Below, one piece after another: positions 148 to 16,161 of a stretch of 64,000 bases of DNA. Source of the DNA: Mogibacterium sp. (GTDB lineage Bacteria > Bacillota > Clostridia > Peptostreptococcales > Anaerovoracaceae); NCBI GenBank assembly GCA_017403955.1, contig JAFRDH010000025.1:1-64000 (forward strand). Direction: 5' to 3'. Position 1 is the first letter of the stretch. Each line of letters starts with the position of its first letter. The notes beneath the pieces are model-generated. The model ran no database searches, was not told the origin of the DNA, and worked only from the letters and a program-made list of their open reading frames with translations. The position numbers and the translations under genes were made by a program.

Positions 148-885
148 TTAACCTTTAAATTCCTTTTTCTCTTTTCCAAAGTGTAGTTCTTTGAGTCCTT
201 CTACTTCGTCGCAGATTTCTCTGAGGCTGCATGTATGGCAGTCTGTCGACATTCCTTCGAGGATCTTGGACAGTGTGAGCGTGATGTCTCTGGTCTTCTT
301 GGCATCAGCACGCATTCCGGCATAGTCAGCATCGTCTGCAGTGACGAAAATCATTTTGACCGCAACGATATCCGGATTCTTCTTGTACTGAGCAATATAG
401 GAGTTTCCGACCTGCTCGAAAGTGATACCCTTTCTTACAGCCTCTTTGGATACTCTGACCTGCTCACGGAAACTGTCGGATGAAGATCTGATCATATATC
501 CCTTCGGATAAACATGATACTTCACGAAGTCGATGTCCTGGATAGCTCTGAACAGCGGCTCGGTGTCCTCCTGGCCTTCACCCTCAAGATCCTTGACCTT
601 GACGATAGCGATCCTGGCAAAAGGAGTGCTGCCTGAGATCTGATTAAGGTCCTTGCCGTATACGAGGATCTCATCTTTGTCAGCATAATCGCCTGATGTG
701 ACGCATGCATAGTTGACAGCAGGCTTGTTGTCGCCGCCGAGTTCATATGCAGACTCTTTCATCATAACGAGCTGGTTGCCGCCGACATCCTCCCAAGTCT
801 TGTGAGGATCATAAGCATATCTCTTAGGAGTAGTGCTCCCGAGGTATCCGTTAATTTTGTCAATGATCGAATTATATAATTCCAT
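148..885 (-). CDS. stand-alone acetyl-CoA synthase middle-domain-like protein
   Basis: The 245-residue product resembles the middle (second) domain of CO dehydrogenase/acetyl-CoA synthase. The landmarks are a GGN motif near residue 35, an ILVYGKDL strand near 73, and VRVSKEAVRKG near 143, comparable to VSKDAVAKG in the Moorella enzyme, followed by a conserved sheet-helix. The true enzyme continues into a large domain carrying the Ni-Fe A-cluster. Here the chain ends about 30 residues after a short Cys motif (Cys216, Cys219, Cys225) that recalls the first A-cluster cysteines. It is the last gene of the dehydratase-like operon, after a tiny membrane protein. Family resemblance is from memory of the sequence. 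Catalysis of acetyl-CoA synthesis is unlikely without the rest of the enzyme, so a scaffold, metal-carrier or acyl-binding role is inference. Confidence 0.65.
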   Translation of the reverse strand: MELYNSIIDKINGYLGSTTPKRYAYDPHKTWEDVGGNQLVMMKESAYELGGDNKPAVNYACVTSGDYADKDEILVYGKDLNQISGSTPFARIAIVKVKDLEGEGQEDTEPLFRAIQDIDFVKYHVYPKGYMIRSSSDSFREQVRVSKEAVRKGITFEQVGNSYIAQYKKNPDIVAVKMIFVTADDADYAGMRADAKKTRDITLTLSKILEGMSTDCHTCSLREICDEVEGLKELHFGKEKKEFKG

Positions 886-940
886 AATATCCCCTCATAA
901 GAGTATGGCGCAGAGCATTGACCCTGCGCCGTTTTCTCTA

Positions 941-1123
941 TTAGAACTTGATATCTACCGGCTTGCGGTCGAATATCTCATTTACTCTTGCATAGGCCCA
1001 TGCCAGCAGCTTCTGATCGAGGTTGAGCATATAGACCGTAAAGAGTGCTCCTGTTGTTACGCAACCAACTGTCGCTGTGACCTTGAGTGCTTTGCAGACA
1101 GGACATTTCTTCTTATTCTTCAT
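941..1123 (-). CDS. small single-span membrane protein, paralogue of the 70-aa protein at 7949-8161
   Basis: This 60-residue protein starts with a Lys-rich stretch containing CPVC (Cys8, Cys11). One hydrophobic segment follows (about residues 17-35), then a LDQKLLAW motif and a short polar tail. The other small protein of this operon has the same layout and a matching LDGKLLYY motif, so the two look like members of one family. A good ribosome binding site (AAGGAGC) precedes the ATG. It lies between the activator gene and the acetyl-CoA-synthase-like gene. Function unknown; a membrane tether or small partner for the neighbouring Fe-S proteins is speculation. Confidence 0.6.
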   Translation of the reverse strand: MKNKKKCPVCKALKVTATVGCVTTGALFTVYMLNLDQKLLAWAYARVNEIFDRKPVDIKF

Positions 1124-1152
1124 TATTGTGCTCCTTTCGGAATAGCAGCTTC

Positions 1153-1944
1153 TTACTTAGCCTGTCCCTTCTGACGAGCGAACTCAGCAGCACCGAGAGC
1201 TCCCATCAGCTGAGGGTCTGTCTTGAGGTTGATAACCTTGAGCTTAAGTACGTGCTCGATAGCGTCCTTCAGTCCGTCATTCTTAGCACATCCGCCTGTA
1301 AGAGTGATGGAATCTGTAGCGCCGGCCTTCTTAGCCATAACGAAGCATCTCTTAGCTACAGCCATCTGGATTCCAGCAGCGATCTCGTCCATTGGCTTGT
1401 TCTCACCAACGAGTGTGATAACCTCGGACTCAGCGAATACTGTGCACTGTGCAGTGATAGGAATTACGTTCTTAGCTGTGAGTGAGAGCTTGGAGAATTC
1501 AGGGAGTGTCATCTCGAAAGATCTAGCCATAGCTTCATAGAATCTTCCTGTTCCAGCAGCGCACTTATCGTTCATAGCGAAGTTCTTAACTGTTCCGTCT
1601 GTATCAACTGCGATACCCTTAACGTCCTGTCCGCCGATATCGATGATAGCCTTTACTGATGGGTCAGTTACGTGTACGCCCATAGCATGGCAGGAAATCT
1701 CGGAAATGTTCTCGTCAGCGAATGGAACCTTGTTACGTCCATATCCTGTACCGATGAGGTATGCGAGTTCTTTGGAGGACTTGAGGCCAACCTTGCCAAG
1801 AACTTCATCCATAGCCAGCTTAGCTGAAGCTTCGGAATTGATCTTGCTCTTGATTGTGGTATCTGCTACCATCTTGCCGTTCTCATCAAGGATAACTGCC
1901 TTTGTATAAGTTGAACCTACATCACAGCCGCCATAATATTTCAT
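1153..1944 (-). CDS. hgdC: 2-hydroxyacyl-CoA dehydratase activator ATPase (HgdC/BadF/BcrA-type)
   Basis: This 263-residue ASKHA-fold ATPase matches the usual length of HgdC-type activators (archerases). These homodimers hold one [4Fe-4S] cluster and inject single electrons into the dehydratase or reductase, driven by ATP hydrolysis. Visible features are the N-terminal phosphate loop DVGSTYTK, the DIGGQD motif near 102, the two cluster cysteines Cys128 (NDKCAAGTGRF) and Cys167 (TAQCTVFAESEV), and the C-terminal LTGGCAKN motif. It is the only activator beside three dehydratase-like pairs, so it may serve all of them. A promoter-like sequence lies in the 126-bp gap upstream, so it may be expressed separately from the preceding genes. 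Its electron donor is not evident; ferredoxin or flavodoxin is usual for the family. Confidence 0.93.
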   Translation of the reverse strand: MKYYGGCDVGSTYTKAVILDENGKMVADTTIKSKINSEASAKLAMDEVLGKVGLKSSKELAYLIGTGYGRNKVPFADENISEISCHAMGVHVTDPSVKAIIDIGGQDVKGIAVDTDGTVKNFAMNDKCAAGTGRFYEAMARSFEMTLPEFSKLSLTAKNVIPITAQCTVFAESEVITLVGENKPMDEIAAGIQMAVAKRCFVMAKKAGATDSITLTGGCAKNDGLKDAIEHVLKLKVINLKTDPQLMGALGAAEFARQKGQAK

Positions 1945-1990
1945 GATTCTTTCTCTCCTTCTTTTATTACAAAAGTACTATGCTGCCCAC

Positions 1991-2019
1991 ATTATATTCA
2001 CTAATGCAGGGAATGTAAA
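1991..2019 (-). promoter_or_regulatory. sigma-A-like promoter ahead of hgdC
   Basis: On the minus strand TTTACA (2019-2014) is followed after exactly 17 bases by a perfect TATAAT (1996-1991). It sits in the gap between the first A-type subunit gene and the activator gene, about 45 bases before the activator start, and would give the activator, the small membrane protein and the acetyl-CoA-synthase-like gene their own transcript. Confidence 0.6.
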
Positions 2020-2070
2020 CTATTTTTTAACAAATGGTAAATTTAAGCTGTTTTTACAGTTTCAGACTGC

Positions 2071-3933
2071 TTACATAGCGGTCTCATCATCGAACTCTTC
2101 CAGTGTAGGATCGATCGGCTCAGCTCTCATGACTGTTCTCATGTATTCGTTTACCTTGCCTCTCATGTTCTTTCTGGATACTGTTCTAGGGTCCATCAGA
2201 TCGTGCTCGATCCAGATCATGTGATAGTTCTTGTCTCTGCACTGATCGTCAAGGATACCCTGCAGTGTAGCCATGTTCTTGCATGCTACGTTCTGGTACA
2301 TGATGATGATCTCAGCTCTCCAGTCTTCTACCTGTCTCCAGAGCTCGTCAACAACGTTGTGATATCCGCCGTTGGTGTGTCTTCTCATTACCATACGCTC
2401 GTAGAGTCTTGCCAGATCCATCAGAGCTTCTTCCTTGTCCTCAGTCTCGAGAACCTTGGTGAAGTTGAGTGATTCCATCTCTACCAGGATGTCGATGCCC
2501 CAGCAGTTTGCAAGCCAGTTACTGAAGTTAGCATAGTAGTGAGCAGGGCAGGACCAAACGATTCCTCTGTACTTCATTTTGCCGCGCCATGCTTCTTCGC
2601 GTCTCTCGTAAGCCTTCATCATGATGTCATTGACTTTCTCGAAGGTCCTCATTGTACGAGGGTCAGCACCGCCGTCCATCTCGTAGTTCCACTTACGGAA
2701 GAGCTCATAGCAAGGTCCGATGATCTGCGGATAATCGGTCTTGTTGACTTCCCACTTCTGCAGCTCATAAGCGGTTTCTTCGTTGAACCTCTTCATCTGC
2801 TTGAAGTAAGCGTCCCAGTTCCACTTAGCGCCTGTGATTTCCTCAACGAACTTGATGCAGCCCTTGATGTCCTCAACAGCGTCCTGTGTAGTTTCTTCAT
2901 ACTCGTATCTTACAGGGAATGTCAGGTGATAAACCGGCAGATCCGGGAATCTTCTTGACATATACTCTGATGCCATTACTGAGCCGTCGCAAGGCATCGA
3001 GCTTGAGATGAAGCATGAACCCATGTGTGGGAGAGCGTCGATTACGAGCGCGCCGCACTCTGAGCTAGGTACCGGACATGTGTCAGCAGGGAGACCAAAA
3101 CTCTCGACTGCGTCGATGTACGGAATGCATGTGAGCTGGTCGATCTCAGATACCAGGAATACCGGCATGAGCTGATAAGGAATACCTACCAGGTCTGGGA
3201 ATCCTGCCATGATCTGTCCCATTGTCATCTCGTCGAAGAGTACGACCTTCTTGTTGAGTACGGAGTTACCGTTCTTCTTGTCGCACTTAGCGAGGAATAC
3301 CAGATTCTCAGCTACATAACGGAAGATGTCATAGATCATCAGGTGTGACATTCTCAGTGCGCTTCCCTTCTGGCCAAATGTGTTCTTGTCCATGAAGCCT
3401 ACGCAGCAGAAGTATGAGATCATCCATCTGTAGTAGAGTGCTGAGTTGAGAGCAGGAACGAGGTCCTTTGAGAATGTCATGAGGAGCATTCCCCACATTT
3501 TGAGCCATTCCTTGAAGTCATATGCTGTATCTACAGCACCCTTCCACTCTCTTCTTACAGTTGCCATATCTCCCTTACGATAGAGCTTACCAAGAGTCTT
3601 CTCACCGTTGAGGAATACGTCTTTGAGTTCCTCAGGGCTCATCTGTGTTGCCTGCTTGAACTCGAGGATGCATCTGTTCAGGTCATCTTTGCATCTTTCA
3701 GCCTGAAGCTTCCAGAATGCCTTGTGATCTGCTTCCTTGAACATCTCGGTGCAGATACCGACGACTTCCATGAGGTTCTTGCCCTGTGCCTTCCAGTCGA
3801 TATTGTCTTTAGCACGGAAGAATGCAGGGTTAGGGAATTTAGCTTTGCCGTTAGCGGCTGCTTTCTTTGCTTTGATCTCTCTCTTTTCGGCAAGAGCGTT
3901 TCTGATGCCCAATAATTCTGTTGAAAGTACCAT
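2071..3933 (-). CDS. 2-hydroxyacyl-CoA dehydratase/benzoyl-CoA reductase-like A-type subunit, pair 1
   Basis: This 620-residue protein is of the 2-hydroxyglutaryl-CoA dehydratase D-component family (PF06050 type) and is longer than its two paralogues here (543 and 534 residues). The extra length is mainly an N-terminal extension of about 80 residues, including a Lys/Ala-rich stretch. Conserved Cys-containing motifs shared by all three A-type proteins are CPVP, PCDGS and NCWG, candidate [4Fe-4S] ligands. It begins at a TAATG junction with the preceding B-type gene (1-base overlap), so the two are probably translated together as a heterodimer. The substrate cannot be deduced; aromatic or 2-hydroxyacyl thioesters are usual for the family, but these sequences look divergent. 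Confidence 0.8.
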   Translation of the reverse strand: MVLSTELLGIRNALAEKREIKAKKAAANGKAKFPNPAFFRAKDNIDWKAQGKNLMEVVGICTEMFKEADHKAFWKLQAERCKDDLNRCILEFKQATQMSPEELKDVFLNGEKTLGKLYRKGDMATVRREWKGAVDTAYDFKEWLKMWGMLLMTFSKDLVPALNSALYYRWMISYFCCVGFMDKNTFGQKGSALRMSHLMIYDIFRYVAENLVFLAKCDKKNGNSVLNKKVVLFDEMTMGQIMAGFPDLVGIPYQLMPVFLVSEIDQLTCIPYIDAVESFGLPADTCPVPSSECGALVIDALPHMGSCFISSSMPCDGSVMASEYMSRRFPDLPVYHLTFPVRYEYEETTQDAVEDIKGCIKFVEEITGAKWNWDAYFKQMKRFNEETAYELQKWEVNKTDYPQIIGPCYELFRKWNYEMDGGADPRTMRTFEKVNDIMMKAYERREEAWRGKMKYRGIVWSCPAHYYANFSNWLANCWGIDILVEMESLNFTKVLETEDKEEALMDLARLYERMVMRRHTNGGYHNVVDELWRQVEDWRAEIIIMYQNVACKNMATLQGILDDQCRDKNYHMIWIEHDLMDPRTVSRKNMRGKVNEYMRTVMRAEPIDPTLEEFDDETAM

Positions 3934-5123
3934 TACTTCTTGCCTCCTTTCTGGATCTTTTTGATTTCAAGGGATTCTACAAACGCCTGGAATCTTGTTC
4001 TGAGCTGTCCGGATCCTCTTGCATTGTACAGTCTGTCTATAGAGAGAATCGGCCAGCCGTATTCATCTGCCATAATGTGGCTTACCAGAGCTCTTTCAAA
4101 TCCCCAGAAGTCACAGTATTTCATCTGTTCGTAGATGATTCCGTCAGCCTTGAACTCCTTAGCGAGTCTGTCAGCTGTCTCTCTTCTCTGATGTACTTTG
4201 TTGTCAGCAATGTAACGTGCACATTCTGAAGTGTTCATGTAATGACGGACGATCTGCGGAAGTGCATCTTCATCATCAGTGAGTTCGATCACTTCTCTGC
4301 CAGGGATCGATCCGAAGCAGTGTCTGTCAAATACTACTCTTGCGCCTGCTGCCTCGATCATCTTGGTGAACTCAGGGTCATCGATCTCGGATCCGACGAT
4401 ACCGACTCTTGCTCTAGGCAGCTGCTTATCAGGTTTTCTCTTCTTGAGTTCTTCCAGAGTCTCCTTAAGATATGGAAGAATCAGATACTTAGGGCATGTG
4501 TAGGTAACAAGGTTGAGGACGTGGAATTCATATCCTGTGATAACCGGATTGTCAGCCTTACGCATTTCGCTGATTTCCTGCATGACCTTGCAGACTTCGT
4601 TGTGCTCAGCAACTGCTTTTCTGATAGCAGCATCCGAGATATCTACACCAAGATTCTCGTGCATTGCAGCGAGCAGTCTTGTTTCGAGTTGTCTCTGCAT
4701 ATGTCTGTATGAGAAATCCTCAGTCTTGTAAGGTACATCCAGAATCGGCAGGAAGAAGTGATCCTTCTCGTTGCACTTGAGTATGCTGAAATGCTCATAG
4801 AATCTGTTCATCATTGAGCAGGCATCAACTGCAGCAAGTCCGTCCAGGAACTGGAATCCTCCCTCGATAGCCCTCTCCAGCAGTGCACGTGCGAATTCGC
4901 AGACGTAGTTCGACATATAATATGTAGAAATGTCGATGGAGCCTGTTCTAGGTGCACGGAGTCTTACGGAAACGCAGTTGTCAACGTTGAGGAGAACTTC
5001 AGGAATGTGGTAGCAGGTATAGCCCATAATGAACTTACCGTCTTTCTTTGCCTGTTCAACCAGTTCGTTGTCTGCATTGTCCAGAAGGTTCTCGAAGTAG
5101 ATCATGTGCTTCAAGTCTTTCAA
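3933..5123 (-). CDS. 2-hydroxyacyl-CoA dehydratase-like B-type subunit, pair 1
   Basis: This 396-residue partner of the preceding A-type protein belongs to the same PF06050-type family. Candidate Fe-S cysteines lie in GYTCYHIPEVL near 37, SNYVCEFARALLERA near 70-85 and DACSMMNRF near 100, positions that also hold cysteines in the other two B-type proteins here. The start is TTG, supported by a strong GGGAGG ribosome binding site; no ATG fits as well. A repeat element of two GGTGAC...GTCACC hairpins lies in the 112-bp gap upstream, between this gene and the CooC-like gene. In known relatives the two subunits carry [4Fe-4S] clusters and receive one electron from the activator. Confidence 0.8.
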   Translation of the reverse strand: MKDLKHMIYFENLLDNADNELVEQAKKDGKFIMGYTCYHIPEVLLNVDNCVSVRLRAPRTGSIDISTYYMSNYVCEFARALLERAIEGGFQFLDGLAAVDACSMMNRFYEHFSILKCNEKDHFFLPILDVPYKTEDFSYRHMQRQLETRLLAAMHENLGVDISDAAIRKAVAEHNEVCKVMQEISEMRKADNPVITGYEFHVLNLVTYTCPKYLILPYLKETLEELKKRKPDKQLPRARVGIVGSEIDDPEFTKMIEAAGARVVFDRHCFGSIPGREVIELTDDEDALPQIVRHYMNTSECARYIADNKVHQRRETADRLAKEFKADGIIYEQMKYCDFWGFERALVSHIMADEYGWPILSIDRLYNARGSGQLRTRFQAFVESLEIKKIQKGGKK

Positions 5124-5146
5124 TGTAATAACCTCCCTCTTATTTC

Positions 5147-5235: not shown

Positions 5236-5997
5236 CTAAATTAGCTGCATCTTCTTGAGGGCTTCGCGTGTCCCCTTCATTACCGGTGAATCCTCCGGAA
5301 GGTCGAATACGCTGATGCCCATGATGTCGTTATCTGCGTGTGCCTTGTCGTCAGGAATGTAAGCAAGGATCTCCGCCGACTCAACTTTGACGAAAGGTAT
5401 CGATTCCTCTTTGACACGGTTTACGATGACTCCGCACTTATCGTACATGACGAGTTCATCTGCGACCTGCTTGATGGTATCGACAACCTTGCAGCCCTTG
5501 CGGCTTGGGTCAGTAATAAGGAAAAGATGGGTGACCTTCTCCATTACACGGCGGTTGATCTGTTCGATCCCGGCTTCACCGTCGATAACAACGTAATCGA
5601 AGTCATTTGCCAGAAGACTGATGACTTCCTTGAGATATGCATTGACTTTACAGTAGCATCCTGCAGCCTCAGGTCTTCCTATAGCCAGAAAACTGAACTT
5701 CTGCTCTTCGAGCATCGTATCGAAGATCCTGAATCTTGCTTCATTAAGCATCTCGATTGCTTCCTTCGGATGTCCGTCTTCAACACTGTTGACTATTTTC
5801 TTGCGGATCCCGTCGAGTGTGTCTGTCGGCTCAACTCCGAGTGCTGTGGTAAGTCCGATAGCAGGGTCTGCATCGATTGCCAGGATCCTTGCGTCCGGAT
5901 ATTCTTCCGTGAGGATCCTTACCATCGCTGAAGAGATCGAAGTCTTTCCGACTCCGCCTTTGCCTGCTACTGTCAAAATCTTTGTATCATTACTCAT
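5236..5997 (-). CDS. cooC: CooC/AcsF-like nickel-insertion ATPase
   Basis: This 253-residue P-loop ATPase of the MinD/ParA class has the deviant Walker A GKGGVGKT near residue 12 and a DADP motif near 43. Its distinctive feature is GRPEAAGCYC (Cys114 and Cys116), matching the CxC metal-binding motif of CooC, the ATPase that matures the nickel site of CO dehydrogenase; AcsF does the same for acetyl-CoA synthase. The length equals that of Carboxydothermus CooC. No CO dehydrogenase gene is in this window; the neighbours are dehydratase-like genes and an acetyl-CoA-synthase-domain protein. The natural inference is that it matures a metal site in one of these. It lies 47 bp after htpG in the same direction. 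Confidence 0.82.
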   Translation of the reverse strand: MSNDTKILTVAGKGGVGKTSISSAMVRILTEEYPDARILAIDADPAIGLTTALGVEPTDTLDGIRKKIVNSVEDGHPKEAIEMLNEARFRIFDTMLEEQKFSFLAIGRPEAAGCYCKVNAYLKEVISLLANDFDYVVIDGEAGIEQINRRVMEKVTHLFLITDPSRKGCKVVDTIKQVADELVMYDKCGVIVNRVKEESIPFVKVESAEILAYIPDDKAHADNDIMGISVFDLPEDSPVMKGTREALKKMQLI

Positions 5998-6044: not shown

Positions 6045-7937
6045 TCAGAACAAGGAGCAAACGATGTCTGTGTATCCGGATGGATCTGCGATTGGAAGTC
6101 CTGCGATGAGGAGTGACTGGTTGAACAGTACCTCGCACAGCTTCTTGGCTTTCTCAGGATCCTGAAGTCTCGCTCTTTCGAGGGCCAGGAATGCCGGATG
6201 GTCTACGTTGAGTTCGAGTATTCTCTTGGCCTTCATTCCGAGTTCCGGATTGACTGCTGTGAAATACTTTTCCATCTCGAAAGTGATTCCTTCGCCACTC
6301 GACAGGCAGACCGGATGAGTTTTGAGCTTGGTCGTAGCCTTGACTACGTCTACCTTGTCGCCGAGTGTCTGCTTGACGAATTCAAAGGTTTCTTTGAATG
6401 TCTCGGTCATCTGCTCATCTGTCTTACCGTCGCCAAGATCGAAGTCGCCGTCAATGACTGACATAAAGCTTACATCTTTGTATTTCCTGAACATGTCAGG
6501 GATGAATTCATCCGTGCTGTCTGTGAAATACAGGATCTCGATGCCTTTGTCCTTGAGGATCTCAGTCTGAGGCATCTTGTCTACTGCGTCAAAGCTGTCG
6601 CCTGCTGCGTAGTAGATGTACTTCTGGTCTTCCTGCATCCTCTCGACATACTCAGCAAGTGTTACGAGCTTCTTCTCCGTCGAAGAGTAGAACATCAGGA
6701 AATCCTGGAGTTCGTTCTTGTATTTGCCGTAGTCATCGAGTGCGCAGAGCTTGAGCTGTCTGCCAAAGCTCTTGTAGAACTTTTCGTATTTCTCACGGTT
6801 GTTCTTGAGCATTTCCTCGAGAGTAGTTCTGATCTTCTTCTCGAGGTTCTTTGAGATCAGCTTGAGCTGTCTGTCGTGCTGCAGAACTTCTCTTGAAATA
6901 TTGAGCGACAGGTCAGGTGAATCTACAACGCCTTTGACAAAGTTGAAGTACTCTGGAAGGAGTTCTTTGCATTTGTCCATGATCAGTACGCCGGAGCTGT
7001 AAAGCTGAAGTCCGCCCGTGAATTCGTCTGAGTAATACTTGTTCGGTATCATCTCAGGGATGTACATCAAAGCGTTATAGCTGACCAGACCCTCGGCAGA
7101 AACTGTGATCGTTTCAAGCGGCGGCAGATCGTCCTGGAATGTCTGCTTGTAGAATGTCTCGTATTCCTCTCTTGTGACGTCCGCGCGCTTTCTCTGCCAC
7201 AGCGGGATCATTGAGTTGAATACTTCGTATTCGTATACTTCCTCGTATTCCGGATTCTTAGGGTCAGAGCCCTCTTTGATCTTAGGCTGAGGCATCAGCA
7301 TTTTGATTGGGAATCTGATGTAGTCAGAGTATTTCTTGACGAGTTTGTATATAGGGTACTCTCTCAAGTACTGGCTGAATTCATCAGCTTCTTCGCCGTC
7401 CTGTCTGATATGCATGATGACGTCAGTTCCCTGTCCGTCTCTCTCAGCTTCTTCGATAGTGTAACCGCCGGTACCTTCGGAGACCCATCTGTGCGCCTTT
7501 TCCTCGCCGTACTTGCGGGAAACGACTTCGACTTTGTCGGAGACCATGAACGCGGAGTAGAAACCTACGCCGAACTGTCCGATGATGTCTACCTGATCTG
7601 CCTTGTCAGCTTTGGATTTCTCGAGTTCCTCAGAGAATTTCTTGCTCCCTGAGAAAGCGATGGTGCCGAGGTTCTTCTCGAGCTCTTCTTCGTTCATGCC
7701 GATCCCGTTGTCGCTGACCGTGAGTGTACGGTTCTCTTTGTCGAGAGTCAGTATGATCTCAAAATCCTTACGCCTGAGTCCGACTGTGTTGTCGGTGAGC
7801 GAAAGATAGCACATTTTGTCGATGGCATCAGACGCGTTCGAGATGATCTCTCTGAGAAAAATCTCCTTGTGCGTATAAATCGAATTGATCATTAAGTCCA
7901 GCAGACGCTGGGATTCGGCTTTAAACTGTTTCTTCAT
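6045..7937 (-). CDS. htpG: molecular chaperone HtpG (Hsp90)
   Basis: This 630-residue Hsp90 homologue has the usual bacterial length. The N-terminal GHKL ATPase domain shows the expected motifs: the helix with IFLREIISNASDA near 30, SDNGIGM near 95 and GQFGVGFYS near 125. The middle domain has the NISREVLQ stretch near 345. It is a dimeric cytosolic foldase. It sits within the dehydratase-like operon, 11 bp after a tiny membrane-protein gene and before the CooC-like gene, suggesting co-transcription. That is an unusual place for htpG and may mean that the large oxygen-sensitive enzymes here need dedicated folding help, which is inference. Confidence 0.95.
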   Translation of the reverse strand: MKKQFKAESQRLLDLMINSIYTHKEIFLREIISNASDAIDKMCYLSLTDNTVGLRRKDFEIILTLDKENRTLTVSDNGIGMNEEELEKNLGTIAFSGSKKFSEELEKSKADKADQVDIIGQFGVGFYSAFMVSDKVEVVSRKYGEEKAHRWVSEGTGGYTIEEAERDGQGTDVIMHIRQDGEEADEFSQYLREYPIYKLVKKYSDYIRFPIKMLMPQPKIKEGSDPKNPEYEEVYEYEVFNSMIPLWQRKRADVTREEYETFYKQTFQDDLPPLETITVSAEGLVSYNALMYIPEMIPNKYYSDEFTGGLQLYSSGVLIMDKCKELLPEYFNFVKGVVDSPDLSLNISREVLQHDRQLKLISKNLEKKIRTTLEEMLKNNREKYEKFYKSFGRQLKLCALDDYGKYKNELQDFLMFYSSTEKKLVTLAEYVERMQEDQKYIYYAAGDSFDAVDKMPQTEILKDKGIEILYFTDSTDEFIPDMFRKYKDVSFMSVIDGDFDLGDGKTDEQMTETFKETFEFVKQTLGDKVDVVKATTKLKTHPVCLSSGEGITFEMEKYFTAVNPELGMKAKRILELNVDHPAFLALERARLQDPEKAKKLCEVLFNQSLLIAGLPIADPSGYTDIVCSLF

Positions 7938-7948: not shown

Positions 7949-8161
7949 TTATTTCTTCATGTATTCAGAATCAATCTGTTCGTATGGAACTGTATGCGGA
8001 TCTCTTCTTTCCATGTTGTCGAAGTGTCTCTTCATGAACGGCTCTACTACGTAATAGAGCAGCTTGCCGTCAAGATCGAAGTAGAACACGCAGAACAGTC
8101 CTGCATATGCGGCAGCAAGAGCGCCGACAGTTCTCTTTATGTTTTTCTTTGCCTTCATCAT
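7949..8161 (-). CDS. small single-span membrane protein, paralogue of the 60-aa protein at 941-1123
   Basis: This 70-residue protein has a basic N-terminus (KAKKNIKR), one hydrophobic segment (about residues 11-27), the motif LDGKLLYYVVEP and a charged tail of about 25 residues. The hydrophobic segment plus LDxKLL arrangement matches the other small protein of this operon. A GGAGG-type site (AAAGGAGGCCG) precedes the ATG. It directly follows the second A-type subunit gene (12-bp gap). Function unknown; the repeated association with dehydratase-like genes suggests an accessory role. Confidence 0.6.
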   Translation of the reverse strand: MMKAKKNIKRTVGALAAAYAGLFCVFYFDLDGKLLYYVVEPFMKRHFDNMERRDPHTVPYEQIDSEYMKK

Positions 8162-9807: not shown

Positions 9808-10998
9808 CTACTTGCCCTCCTGGATCTTCTTGAGTTCTACGCTCTCAACGAATGCCTGGAATCTTGTTCTGAGCTGTCCGGAAGCGGTGTTGATATATTC
9901 TTTCTCGATCGAGCATACAGGGAATCCGTAGTCTCTCGGAAGAACGATAGTATCGATCATTCTCTCATAGCTCCAGTATTCGCAGAACTTGTTGGATGCA
10001 ACGATGATACCGTCAGCCTGATAGTCCTTAGCATAGTCAGCGAGAACCTTCTTGCGGTGTCTCATTTCCTGCTGCTCCATGAATCTTGCGCACTGGCTTG
10101 TGAGGAGGTAATGCTTAGCTACAGCTCTCAGAGGTGTATCGCCTTCCTCTACATTGATGTGGTTCCTTGCTTCGAGTGATCCGTAGCAATATCTGTCTGC
10201 TACTACGAGTGCTCCGCAGCCTTCGATCAGCTTGATGAAATCAGGGTCGTCGTTCTCAGAACCTGCAAGCATAACTTTGATCTTGTAATTAGGCTTGTCG
10301 TCAGGCTCTCTTGTCTTGAGTTCTTCAAGTGTCTCTCTCAGCTTATCTATGATCAGATACTTAGGGCAGCACATCGAAACGAGTGTGATGACACTGAATT
10401 CATATCCTGTGATAGTCGGCCTGTCGAGTTTACGATAGTCGCCGATTGCTGTTACGATATCGTTGACTTCGTTGTTGAGTTCGATCGCTTTGAGAATAGC
10501 TTCGTCCGAAGTGTCTACTCCGAATTCTCTGTTCAGGAAATCCAGTACATGGATCTTGAGCTGCTTCTCATAGTGGTCGATACTGTTCTCATTCTTCTTG
10601 AATGGAACGTCTGTAAATTCTGTCTTGAACGATGCATTGTTGATTACACCGTCCATGTAATCGAGATGCTCCTGGAATCTGCAGGTTACTGTACAAGTTT
10701 CTGTTGCAAGCTGTGCATCGATGAAATTGTAGCCTCCCTCAAGAGCTCTCTCAAGAAGTGATCTGCCGTAGTGGCAGGTTCTTCCGGACATATAGTATGT
10801 AGCCATATCCGGAGATGTGCACCTAGGTGCTCTCAGTCTTACCGAGAAGCAGCCAGGCAGATCCAAAAGGACCTCAGGCATGAAGTAGCATGTGTAGCCG
10901 AGGCACAGATTGCCATCTTCCTTGCCCTTGCGCACGAGGTCATTGTTGGCCTCCTGCAGCAGGTCCTCAAAGTAGATCAGATGCTTTAAGTCACGCAT
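9808..10998 (-). CDS. 2-hydroxyacyl-CoA dehydratase-like B-type subunit, pair 2
   Basis: This 396-residue protein has the same length and N-terminal pattern (MRDLKHLIYFEDLL) as the pair 1 B-type protein. Candidate cluster cysteines are in GYTCYFMPEVL, GRTCHYGRSLLERA and ETCTVTCRF. The start is ATG with AAAGGTG upstream. It is the first gene of a ten-gene co-directional series running down to the acetyl-CoA-synthase-like gene at 148. A good promoter candidate lies at 11113-11142, and a hairpin-forming inverted repeat (CGATGAAG at 11044-11051, CTTCATCG at 11071-11078) lies in the leader. The His-rich gene is transcribed in the opposite direction from the same gap. Confidence 0.8.
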   Translation of the reverse strand: MRDLKHLIYFEDLLQEANNDLVRKGKEDGNLCLGYTCYFMPEVLLDLPGCFSVRLRAPRCTSPDMATYYMSGRTCHYGRSLLERALEGGYNFIDAQLATETCTVTCRFQEHLDYMDGVINNASFKTEFTDVPFKKNENSIDHYEKQLKIHVLDFLNREFGVDTSDEAILKAIELNNEVNDIVTAIGDYRKLDRPTITGYEFSVITLVSMCCPKYLIIDKLRETLEELKTREPDDKPNYKIKVMLAGSENDDPDFIKLIEGCGALVVADRYCYGSLEARNHINVEEGDTPLRAVAKHYLLTSQCARFMEQQEMRHRKKVLADYAKDYQADGIIVASNKFCEYWSYERMIDTIVLPRDYGFPVCSIEKEYINTASGQLRTRFQAFVESVELKKIQEGK

Positions 10999-11078: not shown

Positions 11079-11112
11079 GGCACACTTCACCTCACAATAT
11101 ACTATTGGTATA

Positions 11113-11142
11113 ATTTTAAGGCTCTTGTTATTAATGTGTCAA
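11113..11142 (-). promoter_or_regulatory. promoter for the pair 2 dehydratase-like operon
   Basis: Reading the minus strand, a perfect TTGACA (11142-11137) is followed after 18 bases by TAAAAT (11118-11113), one base from consensus. Transcription would start roughly 110 bases before the pair 2 B-type gene and could continue through ten co-directional genes. Confidence 0.55.
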
Positions 11143-11211
11143 TGGGATATACTCAATTAGAACCGCTATTTTGCAAGGATTTGTGTATTTTTTTGAAACT
11201 TCTTTTTCCAG

Positions 11212-11242
11212 TTGGTCAGTATCCCCTATATAGGGATATAAC
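11212..11242 (+). promoter_or_regulatory. promoter with embedded dyad ahead of the His-rich gene
   Basis: TTGGTC (11212-11217) and TATAAC (11237-11242) are separated by 19 bases, longer than normal. The spacer region contains a near-perfect dyad (TATCCC at 11220-11225, GGGATA at 11233-11238). A long spacer carrying a dyad is typical of promoters controlled by MerR-family activators; C/G tracts in an AT-rich dyad also recall CsoR/RcnR-type metal repressor sites. Which family, if any, acts here is inference; no regulator gene is in view. Confidence 0.35.
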
Positions 11243-11357
11243 AATATAAGAAATCACAATTTATAGTAACCACTTGTAAAATATTCCACGTTTTTCTGAA
11301 ACAATTACCGGGCGCCTTATTTCTATCCATCCGGTCATTTTAAGAGGAGGAATAACT

Positions 11358-11744
11358 ATGTGTAACAGTACAGACCACGAGCACGCAGAACATATCCACG
11401 AACACAGCCACGAGCACACTCACGCTGACGGTACAGTCCATACCCACGAGCATTGCCATTCGCATTCTCATGAGCACTCCGGCGGGCATACTCACGAACA
11501 TATCCATGAAGACGGATCCGTTCATACACATTCTCACTCGCACGCAGCCGCATCATCACCTGAAGAAGCCCTCGCATTGCTCACATACATGCTGAATCAC
11601 AACCGTCATCACGCGGATGAGCTTCATGATCTGGCACATAACTTCGACAGTGTCGAAGGCGACCTCCTTCACGAAGCAGTCGACAAGCTTCAGGAGAGCA
11701 ACGACCTGCTTGAACAGGCACTGTCACTGATCAACAACAAATAG
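11358..11744 (+). CDS. His-rich metal-binding protein, CooJ/Hpn-like in composition
   Basis: In this 128-residue protein the first 62 residues contain 23 histidines, largely as alternating HxH runs with two copies of a DG(T/S)VHTH unit, plus Cys2 and Cys33. The remaining half is predicted helical (SPEEALALLTYML... to the end) with further His residues. No signal peptide is visible, so it is probably cytosolic. Such His-rich proteins store or deliver nickel (CooJ in CO dehydrogenase maturation, Hpn, some HypB N-termini) or zinc. A strong AGAGGAGG site precedes the ATG. It is one of the few plus-strand genes in this arm, divergent from the dehydratase-like operon containing the CooC-like gene, which favours nickel. 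Homology to CooJ itself cannot be claimed from composition. Confidence 0.75.
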   Translation: MCNSTDHEHAEHIHEHSHEHTHADGTVHTHEHCHSHSHEHSGGHTHEHIHEDGSVHTHSHSHAAASSPEEALALLTYMLNHNRHHADELHDLAHNFDSVEGDLLHEAVDKLQESNDLLEQALSLINNK

Positions 11745-11750
11745 CCGCAA

Positions 11751-11786
11751 AACAAATCACCTGCCTTCCGACAGGTGATTGATTTA
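11751..11786. terminator. bidirectional terminator between the His-rich gene and pair 3
   Basis: AATCACCTG (11755-11763) pairs exactly with CAGGTGATT (11772-11780) around an 8-base loop. On the minus strand it is followed by TGTTTTG, on the plus strand by GATTTATT. It lies between two convergent genes and can end both transcripts. Confidence 0.65.
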
Positions 11787-11815
11787 TTACATGATTTTCT
11801 GTGAGGCCACGCGTT

Positions 11816-13420
11816 TTACCACATATTCTCATCAGGGATATGTTCGATCGTCGGATCAAGCGGTTCTTCGCGCATTACCGTTCTCATATACTGGCTGAAC
11901 TCATCACGGATAGCCTGACGTGTGTATACACGCGGGTCGCAAAGGTCATGGCATACCCATACAACATGGATGCCCCTTTCTCTGCCCTGCTCCTCGAACA
12001 TTCCGTGCATTCCGTCAAGCGCTTTGCATGACATGTGTTCCCACATCATTACCATATCAGCATTCATCATTTCGCAGAAGTCCCAGAGCTCATCAACGAG
12101 TACTTTGTAGCCGCCGTGTGTACGGTTACGCATGATCATGTTCTCATTGAGCCATGCCATGTCATAGTAAGCCTGCTCTCTGTTCTCCGGAGTATCTTCT
12201 TCGGCGATCATTCTGGTGTTGACCATGGACAGCATGTCTGTCAGAGGAACAACGCCCCAGCAATGCATCATCCAGTAAAGCATGTGGATGTTGTACTGAG
12301 GCTGTACGCCCCAGATGATACATCTGTGTCTGTATTCAGGAGCCATCATGCTCTTGCGCTGATATCCCTTATGGACAAGCTTGAGGAGCTTCTTGTCGAT
12401 CGGCGGGAATTCAGGTGATCTTCCGCAGTTGCCCATGTAGTTGGTATCGTTGTAAAGCGAGAATACCGAGCCTACGAACTGCGGATAATATGTGCTGTTG
12501 ACATCGAGCCATTCCAGACGTTTTCTTGTAGCGTCATTGACTCTCTTAGCGCACTCGAAGTAGCGTGTCCAGTTCCACTTCTCGCCTGCGTGCTCTTCAA
12601 CGAACTTGATAGCAGCCTTGATGTCTTCTGCGGCATACTTCTGAACGTCATCTTCTCTGTGACGCATAGGAGCTGCCAGCTGGAAAGTAGGGATCCCGTA
12701 CTCTTTCTCGAGTCTGTGCGCAATTACGCCGTTGCCCATGAGTGAGCCGTCACAGGTAGTGTTGACCTGGACTGCGCAGCAGCCGAGTACGGCAAAGTCA
12801 TCATCGATCGAGATTCCGGCTTCTGCCTCAGGCATCGGGCAGACATCGCCCGGAAGTCCGAATTCCTGAGCTACGTCGAGGTAGTGTGTTGTTGAATACT
12901 GTGTGAGGAGGTTTGCAACGAACATAGTCGGAACCTCTCTGAGGATAGCTTTGGTCTCGTCAAAGCCCATCATGAACGCTGTCATGGCGTTCTCGTCTGT
13001 CAGAACGCAGTGGCGTGAATATTCTTCATCGTTACCGGTCCTGCGGTCGCCTCTGAAGATGTTATCCATGGTCTTCGCAACGTCATAGATAACGAAGTTC
13101 ATTGCGGTATGTGTTATACGAAGTGCCTCGTCACGCAGACCCAGTGTGAACTTGTCCATCATGTGAGGTACTGCCAGATAGTTGGCCATCCAGCGGTATC
13201 TGAACATCGCCTTGATATTGCGAGGCTTGGAGATGAACCTTGCCAGGATGGACATGATGTAGAGCCATCTGTAGTAATCATAAAGTGTATCCTTGACACC
13301 TCTCCACTCACGGCGCTTAAGGACTTTGCTCTTGCCGTTGGTCGGGTAAAGCTGGCCGAGAGTCTGCTCGCCTTTGCGTTTGCGAGGATTCTTGATCGTT
13401 TTCATTCTCTTGAAAGCCAT
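11816..13420 (-). CDS. 2-hydroxyacyl-CoA dehydratase-like A-type subunit, pair 3
   Basis: This 534-residue PF06050-type protein is the third A-type paralogue. It shares RREWRGVKDTLY near the N-terminus, CPMPEAEAG, TTCDGSL and HCWG with pairs 1 and 2, so the candidate Fe-S cysteines are retained. A very basic N-terminus (KRMKTIKNPRKRKG) precedes the conserved part. Its ATG overlaps the TAA of its B-type partner by one base (TAATG), as in pair 1. The pair has its own promoter and leader and lies beyond the convergent His-rich gene, so it is regulated separately from pairs 1 and 2. Substrate unknown. Confidence 0.8.
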   Translation of the reverse strand: MAFKRMKTIKNPRKRKGEQTLGQLYPTNGKSKVLKRREWRGVKDTLYDYYRWLYIMSILARFISKPRNIKAMFRYRWMANYLAVPHMMDKFTLGLRDEALRITHTAMNFVIYDVAKTMDNIFRGDRRTGNDEEYSRHCVLTDENAMTAFMMGFDETKAILREVPTMFVANLLTQYSTTHYLDVAQEFGLPGDVCPMPEAEAGISIDDDFAVLGCCAVQVNTTCDGSLMGNGVIAHRLEKEYGIPTFQLAAPMRHREDDVQKYAAEDIKAAIKFVEEHAGEKWNWTRYFECAKRVNDATRKRLEWLDVNSTYYPQFVGSVFSLYNDTNYMGNCGRSPEFPPIDKKLLKLVHKGYQRKSMMAPEYRHRCIIWGVQPQYNIHMLYWMMHCWGVVPLTDMLSMVNTRMIAEEDTPENREQAYYDMAWLNENMIMRNRTHGGYKVLVDELWDFCEMMNADMVMMWEHMSCKALDGMHGMFEEQGRERGIHVVWVCHDLCDPRVYTRQAIRDEFSQYMRTVMREEPLDPTIEHIPDENMW

Positions 13421-14622
13421 TATTTCGCACCTCCCTGCAGCTTCTTGATCTCAATACTCTCAACGAAAGCCTGGACTCTGGTACGCATCTGTCCTGCGGC
13501 GGATGCGATATTATATGGTCTGTCTACGGACAGTACCGGGAATCCATAATCTTCTCTCAGCATGTGAGATCCCAGCATGCGCTCATATGCCCATGGATCG
13601 CAGAATTTGACCTGCTCGTAAATGATACCGTCGGCATTGTATTCTTTGGCGATATCGTTGACGTATTTCTTGCGGCCGTATACCTTCTCCATGTTCATCA
13701 TACGAGGGCACATACCCCAGTATACATAATGACGGCAAACCTGTGTGAGGATGTCTTCATCTGAGTTCTCGTCGATCTCGATCGGCATTCTGCCAGGGAA
13801 TGAGCCGAAGCAGAATCTGTCTGCGCATACATACGTACCGCAATCTTCGATCAGTTTGATGAATGCAACGTCATCGACTTCTGAGCCGACTACCATGACA
13901 CGTGCGCGCCACTTCTTGCCGTCCGGTTCTCTGTTCCTGACTTCTTCAACGGTCTCTTCGAGTTTATCTATCAGCAGATGCTTAGGGCATACATATGTTG
14001 CCAGCGTCAGAACCGCAAATTCGTATCCGGTGATCCTCGGATCTTCTTCCTTACGGAATTCGCTGAGCTCTCTGATCAGGCGGCATACATGATTGTGTTC
14101 TTCTACAGCCTTGAGGATAGCTTCGTCCGAAACGTCTATACCGTATTTCTCCTTAAGCGGCTTGAGAATATGGTTCTTGCACTGGAGAACCAGAAGTTCG
14201 ACTCCGTTCTCATCTGCCTTCAGCGGGATCTCCATGAACTCATAGAAGAATTTCTTCTTGCCCTCGTCCATTGTATGCAGAAGCTCCATGTTCTCTGCAG
14301 CACGGTTCATCATTGTACATCCGTCTGCAGCTATCAGGCAGTCTGCGAAATTGAATCCGCCTTCGATCGCTCTTTCGAGTAACGCCCTGCTTGTCTCGCA
14401 CAGCAGATTGGTCATGTAATATGTCGCAATGTCTACTGAGCCGGAATTCGGCGCAAAAAGACGAACTGAGAACGCATTGCCGAGGTTCATCAGCGGTTCA
14501 GGCAGATTCTCGCATGTAAAAGCTGCGCAGATGTTGCCTTCAGCCTTGGCCTGTTCGATCAGTTCGTTATTTGCATTTTGCAGGAGGTTCTCAAAATATA
14601 AAAGATACTTAAGATCTTTCAT
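13420..14622 (-). CDS. 2-hydroxyacyl-CoA dehydratase-like B-type subunit, pair 3
   Basis: The open frame extends to 14706, but the start is taken at 14622. There an ATG has an AGAGGTG site 5-6 bases upstream and gives MKDLKYLLYFENLL, aligning with the N-termini of both other B-type proteins; the protein is then 400 residues. Candidate Fe-S cysteines are in FTCENLPEPL, NLLCETSRALLERA and DGCTMMNRAAEN. Its leader carries a terminator-like hairpin (14657-14703) downstream of a promoter candidate. Together with the A-type protein it forms the third pair of the locus; no third activator gene is nearby. Confidence 0.8.
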   Translation of the reverse strand: MKDLKYLLYFENLLQNANNELIEQAKAEGNICAAFTCENLPEPLMNLGNAFSVRLFAPNSGSVDIATYYMTNLLCETSRALLERAIEGGFNFADCLIAADGCTMMNRAAENMELLHTMDEGKKKFFYEFMEIPLKADENGVELLVLQCKNHILKPLKEKYGIDVSDEAILKAVEEHNHVCRLIRELSEFRKEEDPRITGYEFAVLTLATYVCPKHLLIDKLEETVEEVRNREPDGKKWRARVMVVGSEVDDVAFIKLIEDCGTYVCADRFCFGSFPGRMPIEIDENSDEDILTQVCRHYVYWGMCPRMMNMEKVYGRKKYVNDIAKEYNADGIIYEQVKFCDPWAYERMLGSHMLREDYGFPVLSVDRPYNIASAAGQMRTRVQAFVESIEIKKLQGGAK

Positions 14623-14656
14623 AGATACACCTCTTTCTTTTCCCTCTCCTGGATAC

Positions 14657-14703
14657 AAAAAACACACCCGGTTCCGGACATAGGTTCGGTTCCGGAATGT
14701 GTT
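14657..14703 (-). promoter_or_regulatory. terminator-like hairpin in the leader of pair 3 (possible attenuator)
   Basis: On the minus strand AACACA...CCGG pairs with CCGG...TGTGTT and is followed at once by a run of six T. The stem arms contain two direct copies of TCCGGAACC. It lies between the promoter candidate at 14723-14751 and the start codon at 14622, so it would end transcription early unless disrupted. Confidence 0.45.
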
Positions 14704-14722
14704 CATTGTTGCTTTTGTTAAA

Positions 14723-14751
14723 AGTGTAACCCTTTACGGATGTATTTTCAA
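14723..14751 (-). promoter_or_regulatory. promoter for pair 3
   Basis: On the minus strand TTGAAA (14751-14746), a 17-base spacer, then TACACT (14728-14723). It is about 100 bases upstream of the B-type start codon and directly upstream of the terminator-like hairpin. Confidence 0.45.
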
Positions 14752-14811
14752 GAACTTATGGGACACATTCATTCGTTTTGGTATAACAACTGGTAAGAAT
14801 CATCCTGAAAG

Positions 14812-15954
14812 CTATTCTGCCAGCATTTCGGTGAATTTTTTCATCACACCCGGGATGTCTATCTGCTGAGGGCAGACCTTTGCACAAGAGCCGCATCCGA
14901 TACATGCTGAAGGAAGTTTCTCTTTATCAAATGCTGCAAGTGCCATTGGAGCGATGAAGCCGCCTTCGCTGTATGAGTGCTCATTGTACAGCGAGAGGAT
15001 CTTCGGGATATCCAGTCCTTTCGGACAATGTGTAGTGCAGTATCTGCATGCTGTACACGGAACAGTACCTGCATTCTTGCCTGTTACACTGAAGTGAGCT
15101 GCCGTGAGGAGAGAAGCGATCTCATCGTCTGAGATAGTTTTCCTGAAATCAAAGAATTCGATGTTCTCTTTGAGCTGCTGCATATCTGACATTCCTGAAA
15201 GGATCATCGTTACGCCCGGGATAGATACGAGGAATCCGAACGCCCAGTTTGCAGGCGTATATTCCGGATGAGTTTTCTCGAGCATCTTTTCTGCGCCGAG
15301 GCATGACTTAGCGAGCTTTCCGCCTCTTAAGCCCTCCATTACCCAGATAGGCATGCCGAGATTATTGAGGGCTTCGACTTTGTATCTTGCATCCTGGAAT
15401 TCGAAGTCGAGATAGTTCAGCTGGATCTGGCAGAACTCAAGGTGCATCCAGTATTTTCTGATGAACTTGTGCATTGTCTCAAATGAGCCGTGGCATGAGA
15501 AACCGAGGTGTCTGATCCTGCCGGCTTCTTTCTGCTTGAGCAGATAATCCATGAGGCCGATCTCTTCATCAAGATATTTGTCGACATTCAGCTCGCAAAC
15601 ATTGTGGAAGAGATAGAAATCGAAATAGTCTGTCTTGCACTTCTCAAGCTGCTTCTCGAAAATCTCTTCGATATGATCGAAGTTCGAAAGATCATATCCC
15701 GGGAACTTGCTTGCAAGATAATAGCTGCTGCGGTCATATTTGGAAAGTGCCTCTCCGATCACGGTCTCGCTGTTGCCGCCGTGATATCCCCATGCAGTGT
15801 CGTAATAGTTGACGCCGTTCGCCATAGCATAGTCGACCATTTCCTGTACTGCTGCAGCATCAGGTCTTGAATCATCACCATCGATAACAGGCAGTCTCAT
15901 GCAGCCCATTCCCAGAGCTGACAGCTTCAGATCTTTGAAATCATTGTAAAACAT
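14812..15954 (-). CDS. aldo/keto reductase with C-terminal ferredoxin domain
   Basis: This 380-residue protein is an aldo/keto reductase TIM barrel (about residues 1-280; LGMGCMRLP at the start, NGVNYYDTAWGYHGGNSE around 50 with the expected Asp/Tyr) fused to a 2[4Fe-4S] ferredoxin-like domain. The cluster motifs are CTACRYCTTHCPKG near 300 and CIGCGSCAKVCPQQ near 355. This architecture is common in anaerobes and is usually annotated as a predicted oxidoreductase of unknown substrate. It is the last gene of a four-gene series starting at 17284, 24 bp after the CooT-like gene. Its Fe-S clusters could pass electrons to or from the dehydratase-like system; that link rests on position only. Confidence 0.88.
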   Translation of the reverse strand: MFYNDFKDLKLSALGMGCMRLPVIDGDDSRPDAAAVQEMVDYAMANGVNYYDTAWGYHGGNSETVIGEALSKYDRSSYYLASKFPGYDLSNFDHIEEIFEKQLEKCKTDYFDFYLFHNVCELNVDKYLDEEIGLMDYLLKQKEAGRIRHLGFSCHGSFETMHKFIRKYWMHLEFCQIQLNYLDFEFQDARYKVEALNNLGMPIWVMEGLRGGKLAKSCLGAEKMLEKTHPEYTPANWAFGFLVSIPGVTMILSGMSDMQQLKENIEFFDFRKTISDDEIASLLTAAHFSVTGKNAGTVPCTACRYCTTHCPKGLDIPKILSLYNEHSYSEGGFIAPMALAAFDKEKLPSACIGCGSCAKVCPQQIDIPGVMKKFTEMLAE

Positions 15955-15978
15955 ATACTTCTCCTTTTCTTCTGTCTG

Positions 15979-16161
15979 TTACTTGACGATTATGAAGTTC
16001 TCTGTGAGATCGATCTGCTCAAGGTTGCCGTCAAAAGCAGTTCTGATGCCCATGATATCTGTGAAATAGATCTTCCCGTCAACGATCTTGATATCTGCTA
16101 CGTTCTTCGCAAGAAGATTCTTATCATCTACGCTGTTCTTGTAAACATTTGAAAGGCACAT
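15979..16161 (-). CDS. cooT: CooT-family nickel-binding protein
   Basis: This 60-residue protein begins MCLSNVYK, the hallmark of the CooT family, in which Cys2 is the nickel ligand of a small dimeric beta-barrel protein. The remainder (VADIKIVDGKIYFTDIMG...LEQIDLTENFIIV) fits the alternating beta pattern and length of the family. In Rhodospirillum, CooT works with CooC and CooJ to supply nickel to CO dehydrogenase. Here the ATG overlaps the stop codon of the preceding acetyltransferase gene by one base (TAATG). It is the third nickel-linked protein near this locus, after the CooC-like ATPase and the His-rich protein. Confidence 0.8.
   Translation of the reverse strand: MCLSNVYKNSVDDKNLLAKNVADIKIVDGKIYFTDIMGIRTAFDGNLEQIDLTENFIIVK

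Follow-up and report, generated by a model that had tools for sequence, protein, structure and literature searches.

In acetyl-CoA synthase (ACS), nickel ions are held by the fourth cysteine of the A-cluster and by a CGC motif, and AcsF, an ATPase of the CooC family, is the nickel insertase of this enzyme. Cys 509, 595 and 597 have been named as nickel ligands (PMC8910529, PMC10299331). The proteins CooC, CooJ and CooT are treated as maturation proteins of carbon monoxide dehydrogenase (CODH) in a study whose main text does not contain the word "dehydratase" (PMC13056359). In the reductase subunit BzdN, the double-cubane cysteines are 36, 73, 100, 263, 293 and 327 (PMC11971306). Here we analyze a locus in which genes of these kinds lie together, within a 64,000-nucleotide stretch of DNA from Mogibacterium sp. 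(contig JAFRDH010000025.1, positions 1 to 64,000; the whole stretch is called the window). We find that its essential unit consists of five genes, which encode a CooC-like ATPase, a double-cubane-type subunit (B), a catalytic-type subunit (A), an ATP-dependent activator and a short ACS-like protein that we call CdhC-like. The five-gene system is very probably an ATP-driven reductase. On balance we lean towards a two-component reductase of the kind represented by benzoyl-CoA reductase and hydroxyacyl-CoA dehydratase, in which CooC would supply a nickel-iron-sulfur part. A search of openly licensed PMC papers found no description of the five-gene set.

A conserved unit of five genes

The window is the start of a contig (C18) of a 2.2 Mb genome that is 95% complete. 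The end of the CdhC-like gene is 147 bases from the end of the contig, and because the contig starts at the window's first base, the sequence 3' of this gene is not seen here. All named parts of the cluster are real open reading frames on the minus strand, with the sole exception of a His-rich gene on the plus strand, and the list of parts in a preliminary description of the window proved sound, every part lying at the coordinates given.

We compared 73 loci, not including the window. At 54 of these, the sequence available upstream of the CdhC-like gene spans 5.2 kb or more. Neighbors were counted by tblastn, on any strand, in fetched stretches that mostly reach up to 10 kb to each side. Among the 54 loci, the CooC-like gene was found at 52, B at 51, A at 51 and the activator at 50, and the same searches found HtpG at 23, an OYE-type flavoenzyme at 9, an isoprene-reductase-like protein at 8 and HypA at 6. 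It is important to consider that 26 of the 54 loci belong to the window's genus and hence are not independent. Among the other 28, all four partners are present at 27, the exception being L057, which has only the CooC-like and CdhC-like genes; the activator is missing at the locus in L078. Two further exceptions, L048 and L049, have only the CdhC-like gene and an aldo-keto reductase, and L048 lies beside genes that by eye resemble those of nucleoside catabolism.

The commonest gene order is CooC-B-A-activator-CdhC-like. An alternative is CooC-activator-CdhC-like with B-A downstream, and further orders are B-A-activator-CdhC-like-CooC, CdhC-like-CooC-B-A-activator and B-A-CooC-activator-CdhC-like. 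Because gene orders differ between loci in this way, the linkage of the five genes survives rearrangement. The observation made in the window is confirmed and extends beyond it, as a conserved five-gene system. The preliminary description had expected the parts to co-occur in other genomes together with three A/B pairs; this holds for the five genes, while one pair suffices. Many loci show a single A/B pair, and the idea that three pairs are required is rejected by the genomes of L143 and L145, each of which has one A (E <= 1e-60), of clade 3 of the tree discussed below. When six loci of the genus were read further upstream, pair 3 was complete in one and only its edge was present in another.

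The CdhC-like gene is present in 40 of the 47 genomes of the window's genus (three by short matches at contig ends), including 16 of the 18 of good quality. It also occurs at 41 named loci in genome_contigs, with titles such as Mogibacterium, Crickella and uncultured Clostridiales; Oscillospiraceae contribute one locus and Lachnospiraceae two. Among 391 genomes sampled evenly from the class, a match at E < 1e-40 is present in 7, counting the window's own; five others are weaker and sit in frames 537-719 amino acids long. A sample of the phylum gave matches in 106 of 398 genomes, strong only in the window's genome and G626; the remainder (E 1e-5 to 1e-18) fall mostly in frames of ACS length. 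The family of G230 gave matches in 4 of 40 genomes, and one more in a frame of 745 amino acids. The gene was also found in 24 of the 299 genomes of family f31, whose relationship to L059 and L060 makes it probably Lachnospiraceae. When the same 299 genomes were searched with a profile of A (E <= 1e-60), 24 were found, and these are identical to the 24 with the CdhC-like gene (E < 1e-50). Because this profile was built from A genes found via the CdhC-like gene, with weaker A matches not requested, the result shows only that this clade of A never occurs without the CdhC-like gene, and because the genomes are related we attach no formal probability to it.

Subunits and activator

The activator (1153..1944), an acyl-CoA dehydratase activase, belongs to the BadF/BcrA family (PF01869, E = 2.2e-55; TIGR00241, 211 bits against a cut-off of 125). 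Its C128 and C167, which presumably hold the [4Fe-4S] cluster, are kept in 16 of 16 representatives (here and below, representatives share less than 85% identity). At L144, the five-gene set has two activators in tandem, which share 34% and 43% identity with that of the window, resembling the two-subunit activators of benzoyl-CoA reductases.

All six A and B proteins of the window match PF06050 (E from 4.8e-27 to 1.9e-89), and with the ligand cysteines described below, the pairs have the two related HGD-D-fold subunits of the ATP-dependent benzoyl-CoA reductase/hydroxyacyl-CoA dehydratase superfamily. For A1 (2071..3933), which has an N-terminal helical extension, a structural model (mean pLDDT 78) gave 20 Foldseek matches at E <= 0.001, all of them chains of BzdNO, HadBC (3o3m, 3o3o), MbdON(PQ) and DCCP. 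In B1 (3933..5123), the residues aligned with the six BzdN cysteines are C37, C75, C102, C269, C301 and C337; each of these ligands is kept in 32-33 of 33 representatives, and they are invariant in 13 B proteins. The scores of B1, B2 and B3 with the DCCP equivalog model NF040772 are 140, 128.5 and 127.6 bits, below its cut-off of 350.

In A, three cysteines correspond to those of BzdO. Cys95 of BzdO aligns with C286 of A1 and Cys128 with C315 within one residue, while the match of Cys380 to C551 comes from MbdO and from a second, very weak aligned segment. C286 and C315 are kept in 37 of 37 representatives and C551 in 35 of 36. A does not keep the three distal ligands of the double cubane. A further cysteine, C477, considered as a candidate extra nickel ligand, is present in 35 of 37, and the MbdO alignment places it off the double-cubane ligand positions. 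With a one-residue shift of the profile alignment at Cys128, BzdO His131 corresponds to either Gly317 or Ser318, and these two residues are invariant among 14 A proteins. The Glu of the catalytic Glu/His pair of BzdO was not located, and the A and B scores are far below the equivalog cut-offs for benzoyl-CoA reductases.

The CdhC-like protein

The CdhC-like protein (148..885; 245 amino acids) consists of ACS domain 2 followed by C216-x2-C219-x5-C225. It matches PF03598 with 34.8 bits (E = 1.9e-8; cut-off 24), and the ACS middle domain is its only match in Pfam and NCBIfam at E <= 0.001. All 13 matches among Protein Data Bank sequences at E <= 0.002 are ACS, as are all 23 Foldseek matches at E <= 0.001 of its AlphaFold2 model (mean pLDDT 79). 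It is not a full-length ACS, since it ends soon after its third cysteine, compared with about 710 amino acids for ACS, and it scores 30 bits with the ACS model NF040764, whose cut-off is 800.

C216, C219, C225, E48 and R144 are kept in 47 of 47 representatives and H235 in 45 of 47. In an alignment with four ACS proteins from the fetched genomes, the cysteine triad lines up with the first three cysteines of the A-cluster, which we take to be Cys 506, 509 and 518 of ACS. In a separate alignment His235 is present in 15 of 17 proteins; the two most distant members (23% identical) lack it and have an extra cysteine instead, as if the fourth ligand of a putative cluster had been exchanged between His235 and Cys. 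These very distant versions of the five-gene set, at L084 and L085, have CdhC-like proteins 23% identical to the window's and lie near an OYE-type enzyme; L084 also has GcvT-like and butyrate-kinase-like genes nearby.

Proteins linked to nickel handling

The CooC-like protein (5236..5997), a predicted nickel-insertion ATPase, is closest to CooC 3kje (E = 1e-16), presumably from Carboxydothermus, and its CYC motif (C114/C116) aligns on the CYC of that protein. K13, K18 and CYC are kept in 28 of 28 representatives, so that the deviant Walker A and CxC motifs of CooC are both present. However, some CooC proteins do not bind nickel (PMC6006190). The CooT-like protein (15979..16161) matches PF10133 with 60.6 bits (cut-off 27) and starts with MC, giving the Cys2 that has been reported to bind nickel in CooT (PMC6006190). 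The His-rich protein (11358..11744, plus strand) has 29 His among 128 amino acids. It has no match in Pfam or NCBIfam, and the name CooJ-like reflects this composition, not a comparison with any CooJ sequence.

HypA adjoins 7 of the 73 loci, together with a large flavin/Fe-S protein that resembles isoprene reductase. Six IsrA-like proteins that we checked (891-980 amino acids; one from L140, where no HypA was seen) have two CxC motifs 74 residues apart and two further invariant cysteines nearby. IsrA has been described with the same CxC arrangement, and 73% of 988 IsrA homologues are near HypA (PMC10134865). Because the accompanying protein has the IsrA pattern and IsrA homologues mostly go with HypA, we rejected HypA as nickel evidence for the five-gene system and left it uncounted. 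The loci with an IsrA-like protein and HypA beside the core operon are L073 (10633-13921), L126, L132, L133, L134, L137 and L139; in these, two reductases with separate predicted links to nickel are adjacent.

Nickel enzymes in genomes that carry the unit

The window's genome has no match to PF03063, PF00374 or PF00449. Its single PF03598 match is the CdhC-like gene, and there is no full-length ACS, so the earlier remark that no CODH or complete ACS was visible in the window extends to the whole assembly. We searched 71 genomes with the CdhC-like gene, 41 of them of good quality, for CODH, NiFe hydrogenase and urease; 40 of the 71, including 16 of good quality, belong to the window's genus. 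The prismane family, which comprises CODH and hybrid-cluster protein, was matched in 20 of 71 genomes, in 4 of the 40 of the genus and in none of its 16 good-quality genomes. NCBIfam models classed 10 of the 12 prismane-family proteins that were fetched, as CODH in G359, G906, G230, G1012, G996, G877 and G626 and as hybrid-cluster protein in G930, G012 and G911. Four more genomes (G342, G438, G447, G1001) were assigned CODH by frame length only. The matches within the genus are one hybrid-cluster protein by model, two by length and an unclassified fragment of 146 amino acids. Apart from this fragment, CODH was identified in none of the 40 genus genomes, and none was identified in 60 of the 71 overall. 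NiFe hydrogenase was found in 8 of 71 (seven by partial matches) and in none of the genus; urease exceeded the cut-off in 3 of 71, with none of the 40 among them, and five genus genomes have weak matches below it.

We considered whether the system excludes CODH/ACS, and rejected this idea: among the 299 genomes of f31, 24 have the CdhC-like gene, 19 have an ACS-length match and 1 has both, where chance predicts about 1.5. Two loci in genomes that also carry the five-gene system, L152 (430-2547, minus strand) and L153 (185-2248, plus strand), encode CODH-like proteins with a His-rich N-terminal extension; these score 491.8 and 478.5 bits with TIGR01702, whose cut-off is 478.

Proposed function and alternative explanations

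We propose the following mechanism. A dimer of the activator, with one [4Fe-4S] cluster, would use ATP to drive an electron to a very low potential. This electron would enter the double-cubane [8Fe-9S] cluster of B and pass to the three-cysteine [4Fe-4S] cluster in A, where the substrate would be reduced. The CdhC-like protein, or a site that it shares with A, would receive nickel from CooC, as ACS does from AcsF, and in the window's genus CooT and the His-rich protein would assist in this loading. The activator step and the clusters of B and A are supported by conserved ligands and fold, and the ATP-driven reductase of the preliminary description thereby stands on good ground. Nickel and its place in the CooC step we infer from gene content and motifs. 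Nickel is probably present in the system. Its location on or next to the CdhC-like protein is a tentative assignment, one that we would expect to be wrong somewhat more often than right. The prospect that the system is a nickel enzyme of a new class, in which the complex of an ATP-driven Fe-S reductase includes a Ni-Fe-S site built on an ACS-derived domain and filled by a dedicated CooC, seems to us just short of even.

Several observations count against nickel in this system. The alignment with four ACS proteins shows neither the fourth A-cluster cysteine nor CGC in the CdhC-like protein, and its third cysteine is spaced by 5 residues, compared with 8 in ACS; because of these differences, the correspondence of the triad to A-cluster cysteines is likely rather than proven. 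The C-terminal cysteine region of the AlphaFold2 model has pLDDT < 50, and in A we saw no unmistakable nickel site. Only 8 and 4 of the 54 fetched stretches, whose upstream part mostly ends at 10 kb, contain CooT and the His-rich gene, respectively; when the six genus loci were read further upstream, a His-rich homologue lay in the same place in all six, CooT in just two. CODH occurs in 11 of the 71 genomes with the system (four by frame length alone) and in 9 of the 41 of good quality, and 24 of the 40 genus genomes are less than 90% complete or more than 5% contaminated, so their absences are weaker evidence. In addition, CooT occurs without CODH, as only 85 of 111 proteomes with CooT also have CODH (PMC6006190).

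One alternative is that the same ATP-driven reductase operates without nickel. The CooC-like and CdhC-like proteins would then assemble or deliver an Fe-S cluster, such as B's double cubane or A's open cluster, and the C-x2-C-x5-C of the CdhC-like protein would hold a plain [4Fe-4S] cluster. The missing CGC motif and the seemingly exchangeable fourth ligand fit such a system, as does the observation that CooT and the His-rich gene were not seen at most loci. However, the CYC of CooC is invariant, and CooT and the His-rich protein recur in genus loci and in Lachnospiraceae/f31 loci. The window's genome also provides an internal control, since it holds two ordinary dehydratase clusters (activator, pair and CoA-transferase-like gene; the one on C13 adds acyl-CoA-dehydrogenase- and Etf-like genes, judged by eye from N-termini) and a double-cubane-type gene with an activator. 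In the 17.0, 10.7 and 13.0 kb around these three, tblastn found no homologue of the CooC, CooT, His-rich or CdhC-like genes. We regard a nickel-free system as unlikely, while considering it the most serious of the alternatives.

It might also be supposed that the system is an ordinary CoA-thioester reductase or dehydratase, whose ACS-like domain would do no more than dock CoA or the substrate, the nickel genes being incidental or serving nickel storage. A and B do have the fold known from acyl-CoA dehydratases and from benzoyl-CoA reductase, and ACS, the parent of the domain, is generally known to handle CoA. However, a scan of 19 window proteins, which extend to 23 kb, turned up neither a CoA transferase nor an acyl-CoA dehydrogenase, whereas both ordinary clusters have a CoA-transferase-like gene, and the near-constant presence of CooC is hard to reconcile with an incidental role; we judge this explanation improbable. 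More doubtful still is the idea that the nickel proteins serve another, unseen nickel enzyme, such as lactate racemase or the isoprene-reductase-like protein: the 71-genome searches covered three enzymes only, and the latter gene does lie at a few loci with its HypA, but CooC stays with the five-gene set instead, and lactate racemase and IsrA homologues have been described with other chaperones, LarE and HypA/HypB (PMC10134865).

As to the substrate of the ATP-driven reductase, an OYE-type FMN/FAD enzyme is next to the core at L060, L072, L127, L130 and L131, an IsrA-like protein with HypA at the seven loci named above, and an aldo-keto reductase in the window, L048 and L049. Since these neighbors are predicted C=C or C=O reductases, they provide a hint; being present at a minority of loci, they weakly suggest that the compound reduced is unsaturated, aromatic or a carbonyl.

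The known nickel enzymes are few, and we are not aware of an ATP-driven double-cubane reductase among them. If nickel is present, two ancient metal chemistries, the Ni-Fe-S chemistry of ACS and ATP-driven reduction at very low potential, would be joined in gut anaerobes, and this would account for the retention of nickel chaperone genes in genomes in which searches for CODH, NiFe hydrogenase and urease found none. If the system is indeed a new class of enzyme, nickel chemistry would take place at potentials reached only via ATP-driven electron transfer. The system also presents a part of ACS that exists separately from CODH.

Further features and evolution of the cluster

On the minus strand, the order of transcription is CooT, aldo-keto reductase, B3-A3, B2-A2, a 70-amino-acid protein, HtpG, CooC-like, B1-A1, activator and CdhC-like, with the His-rich gene interposed on the plus strand between pairs B3-A3 and B2-A2. 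Genes are mostly separated by 2-126 bases or overlap by one base; wider gaps precede the CdhC-like gene (267 bases) and surround the His-rich gene (817 bases). The preliminary description had not listed HtpG, the 70-amino-acid protein or the aldo-keto reductase with its ferredoxin domains. The Hsp90 chaperone HtpG (6045..7937; NF003555, 661.7 bits, cut-off 371) is part of the extended cluster in the window's genus. The 70-amino-acid protein (7949..8161), between A2 and HtpG, has no Pfam match, and relatives occupy the same place elsewhere. The aldo-keto reductase (14812..15954) matches PF00248 and PF13187. A sigma-70-like promoter before B2 (11113..11142, minus strand; TTGACA-18-TAAAAT) is a consensus match only, of a kind found 29 times where 20.8 are expected, as is a two-way terminator-like hairpin (11755..11780) between the His-rich gene and A3 a consensus match only. 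Rfam gave no matches in the window or in 7 relative loci. Outside the cluster, positions 17382-23149 encode in a row a VWA-like DUF2201 protein, a MoxR-type AAA ATPase and a 1133-amino-acid SNF2-type helicase, possibly a mobile or defense island.

The second pair comprises A2 (8174..9805) and B2 (9808..10998), and the third A3 (11816..13420) and B3 (13420..14706); B2 and B3 both have the six cysteines, and by-eye comparison with B1 and B2 indicates that the true start of B3 is probably 28 codons later than called. In a tree of 35 A proteins, A1, A2 and A3 lie in three supported clades. Because each clade also holds Lachnospiraceae or f31 members, the pairs are old, and they may have moved between families. 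The three pairs, old paralogues, have a single activator, CooC and CdhC-like protein in common and probably act on different substrates. Distances of the CdhC-like and CooC proteins correlate across 49 loci (Mantel r 0.946, reached in 0 of 2000 permutations), and those among CooC, activator and CdhC-like with r 0.80-0.95; common descent alone suffices to produce such correlations.

Comparison with known systems

ACS (AcsB/CdhC) with AcsF shares with the present system the ACS domain 2, the first A-cluster cysteines and a CooC-type ATPase. It differs in its CGC motif and its length, and in that most genomes with the five-gene system have no identified CODH. An additional ACS beta-subunit gene has been mentioned for Acetobacterium wieringae (PMC10134865). 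IsrA, the putative isoprene reductase, is similar in that a link to nickel was proposed from chaperone genes, in a genome without NiFe hydrogenase; unlike the present system, it is a flavin/Fe-S protein without an ATP-dependent activator, and its chaperones are HypA/HypB (PMC10134865).

HadBC, the (R)-2-hydroxyisocaproyl-CoA dehydratase, resembles the A/B pairs as a heterodimer of the same fold with an activator of the homodimeric type (TIGR00241). In contrast, B here has the full set of double-cubane ligands, the partners include ACS-like and CooC proteins, and the window's cluster has no genes of a CoA pathway. The class I benzoyl-CoA reductases BzdNOPQ and MbdONPQ are closer, with an ATP-dependent activator, a six-cysteine double-cubane subunit, the same fold and a catalytic subunit with three cysteines on one [4Fe-4S] cluster. 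BzdO is nevertheless unlike A, which has Gly or Ser and in none of 14 proteins His at the His131 position. To our knowledge, neither CooC nor an ACS-like protein belongs to these reductases. Finally, DCCP with its reductase combines the double-cubane ligands seen here in B, the CDG motif seen here in A and an ATP-driven activator. However, DCCP is one homodimeric protein (PMC11971306), while the system described here distributes these features over two distinct subunits and adds CooC and the CdhC-like protein.

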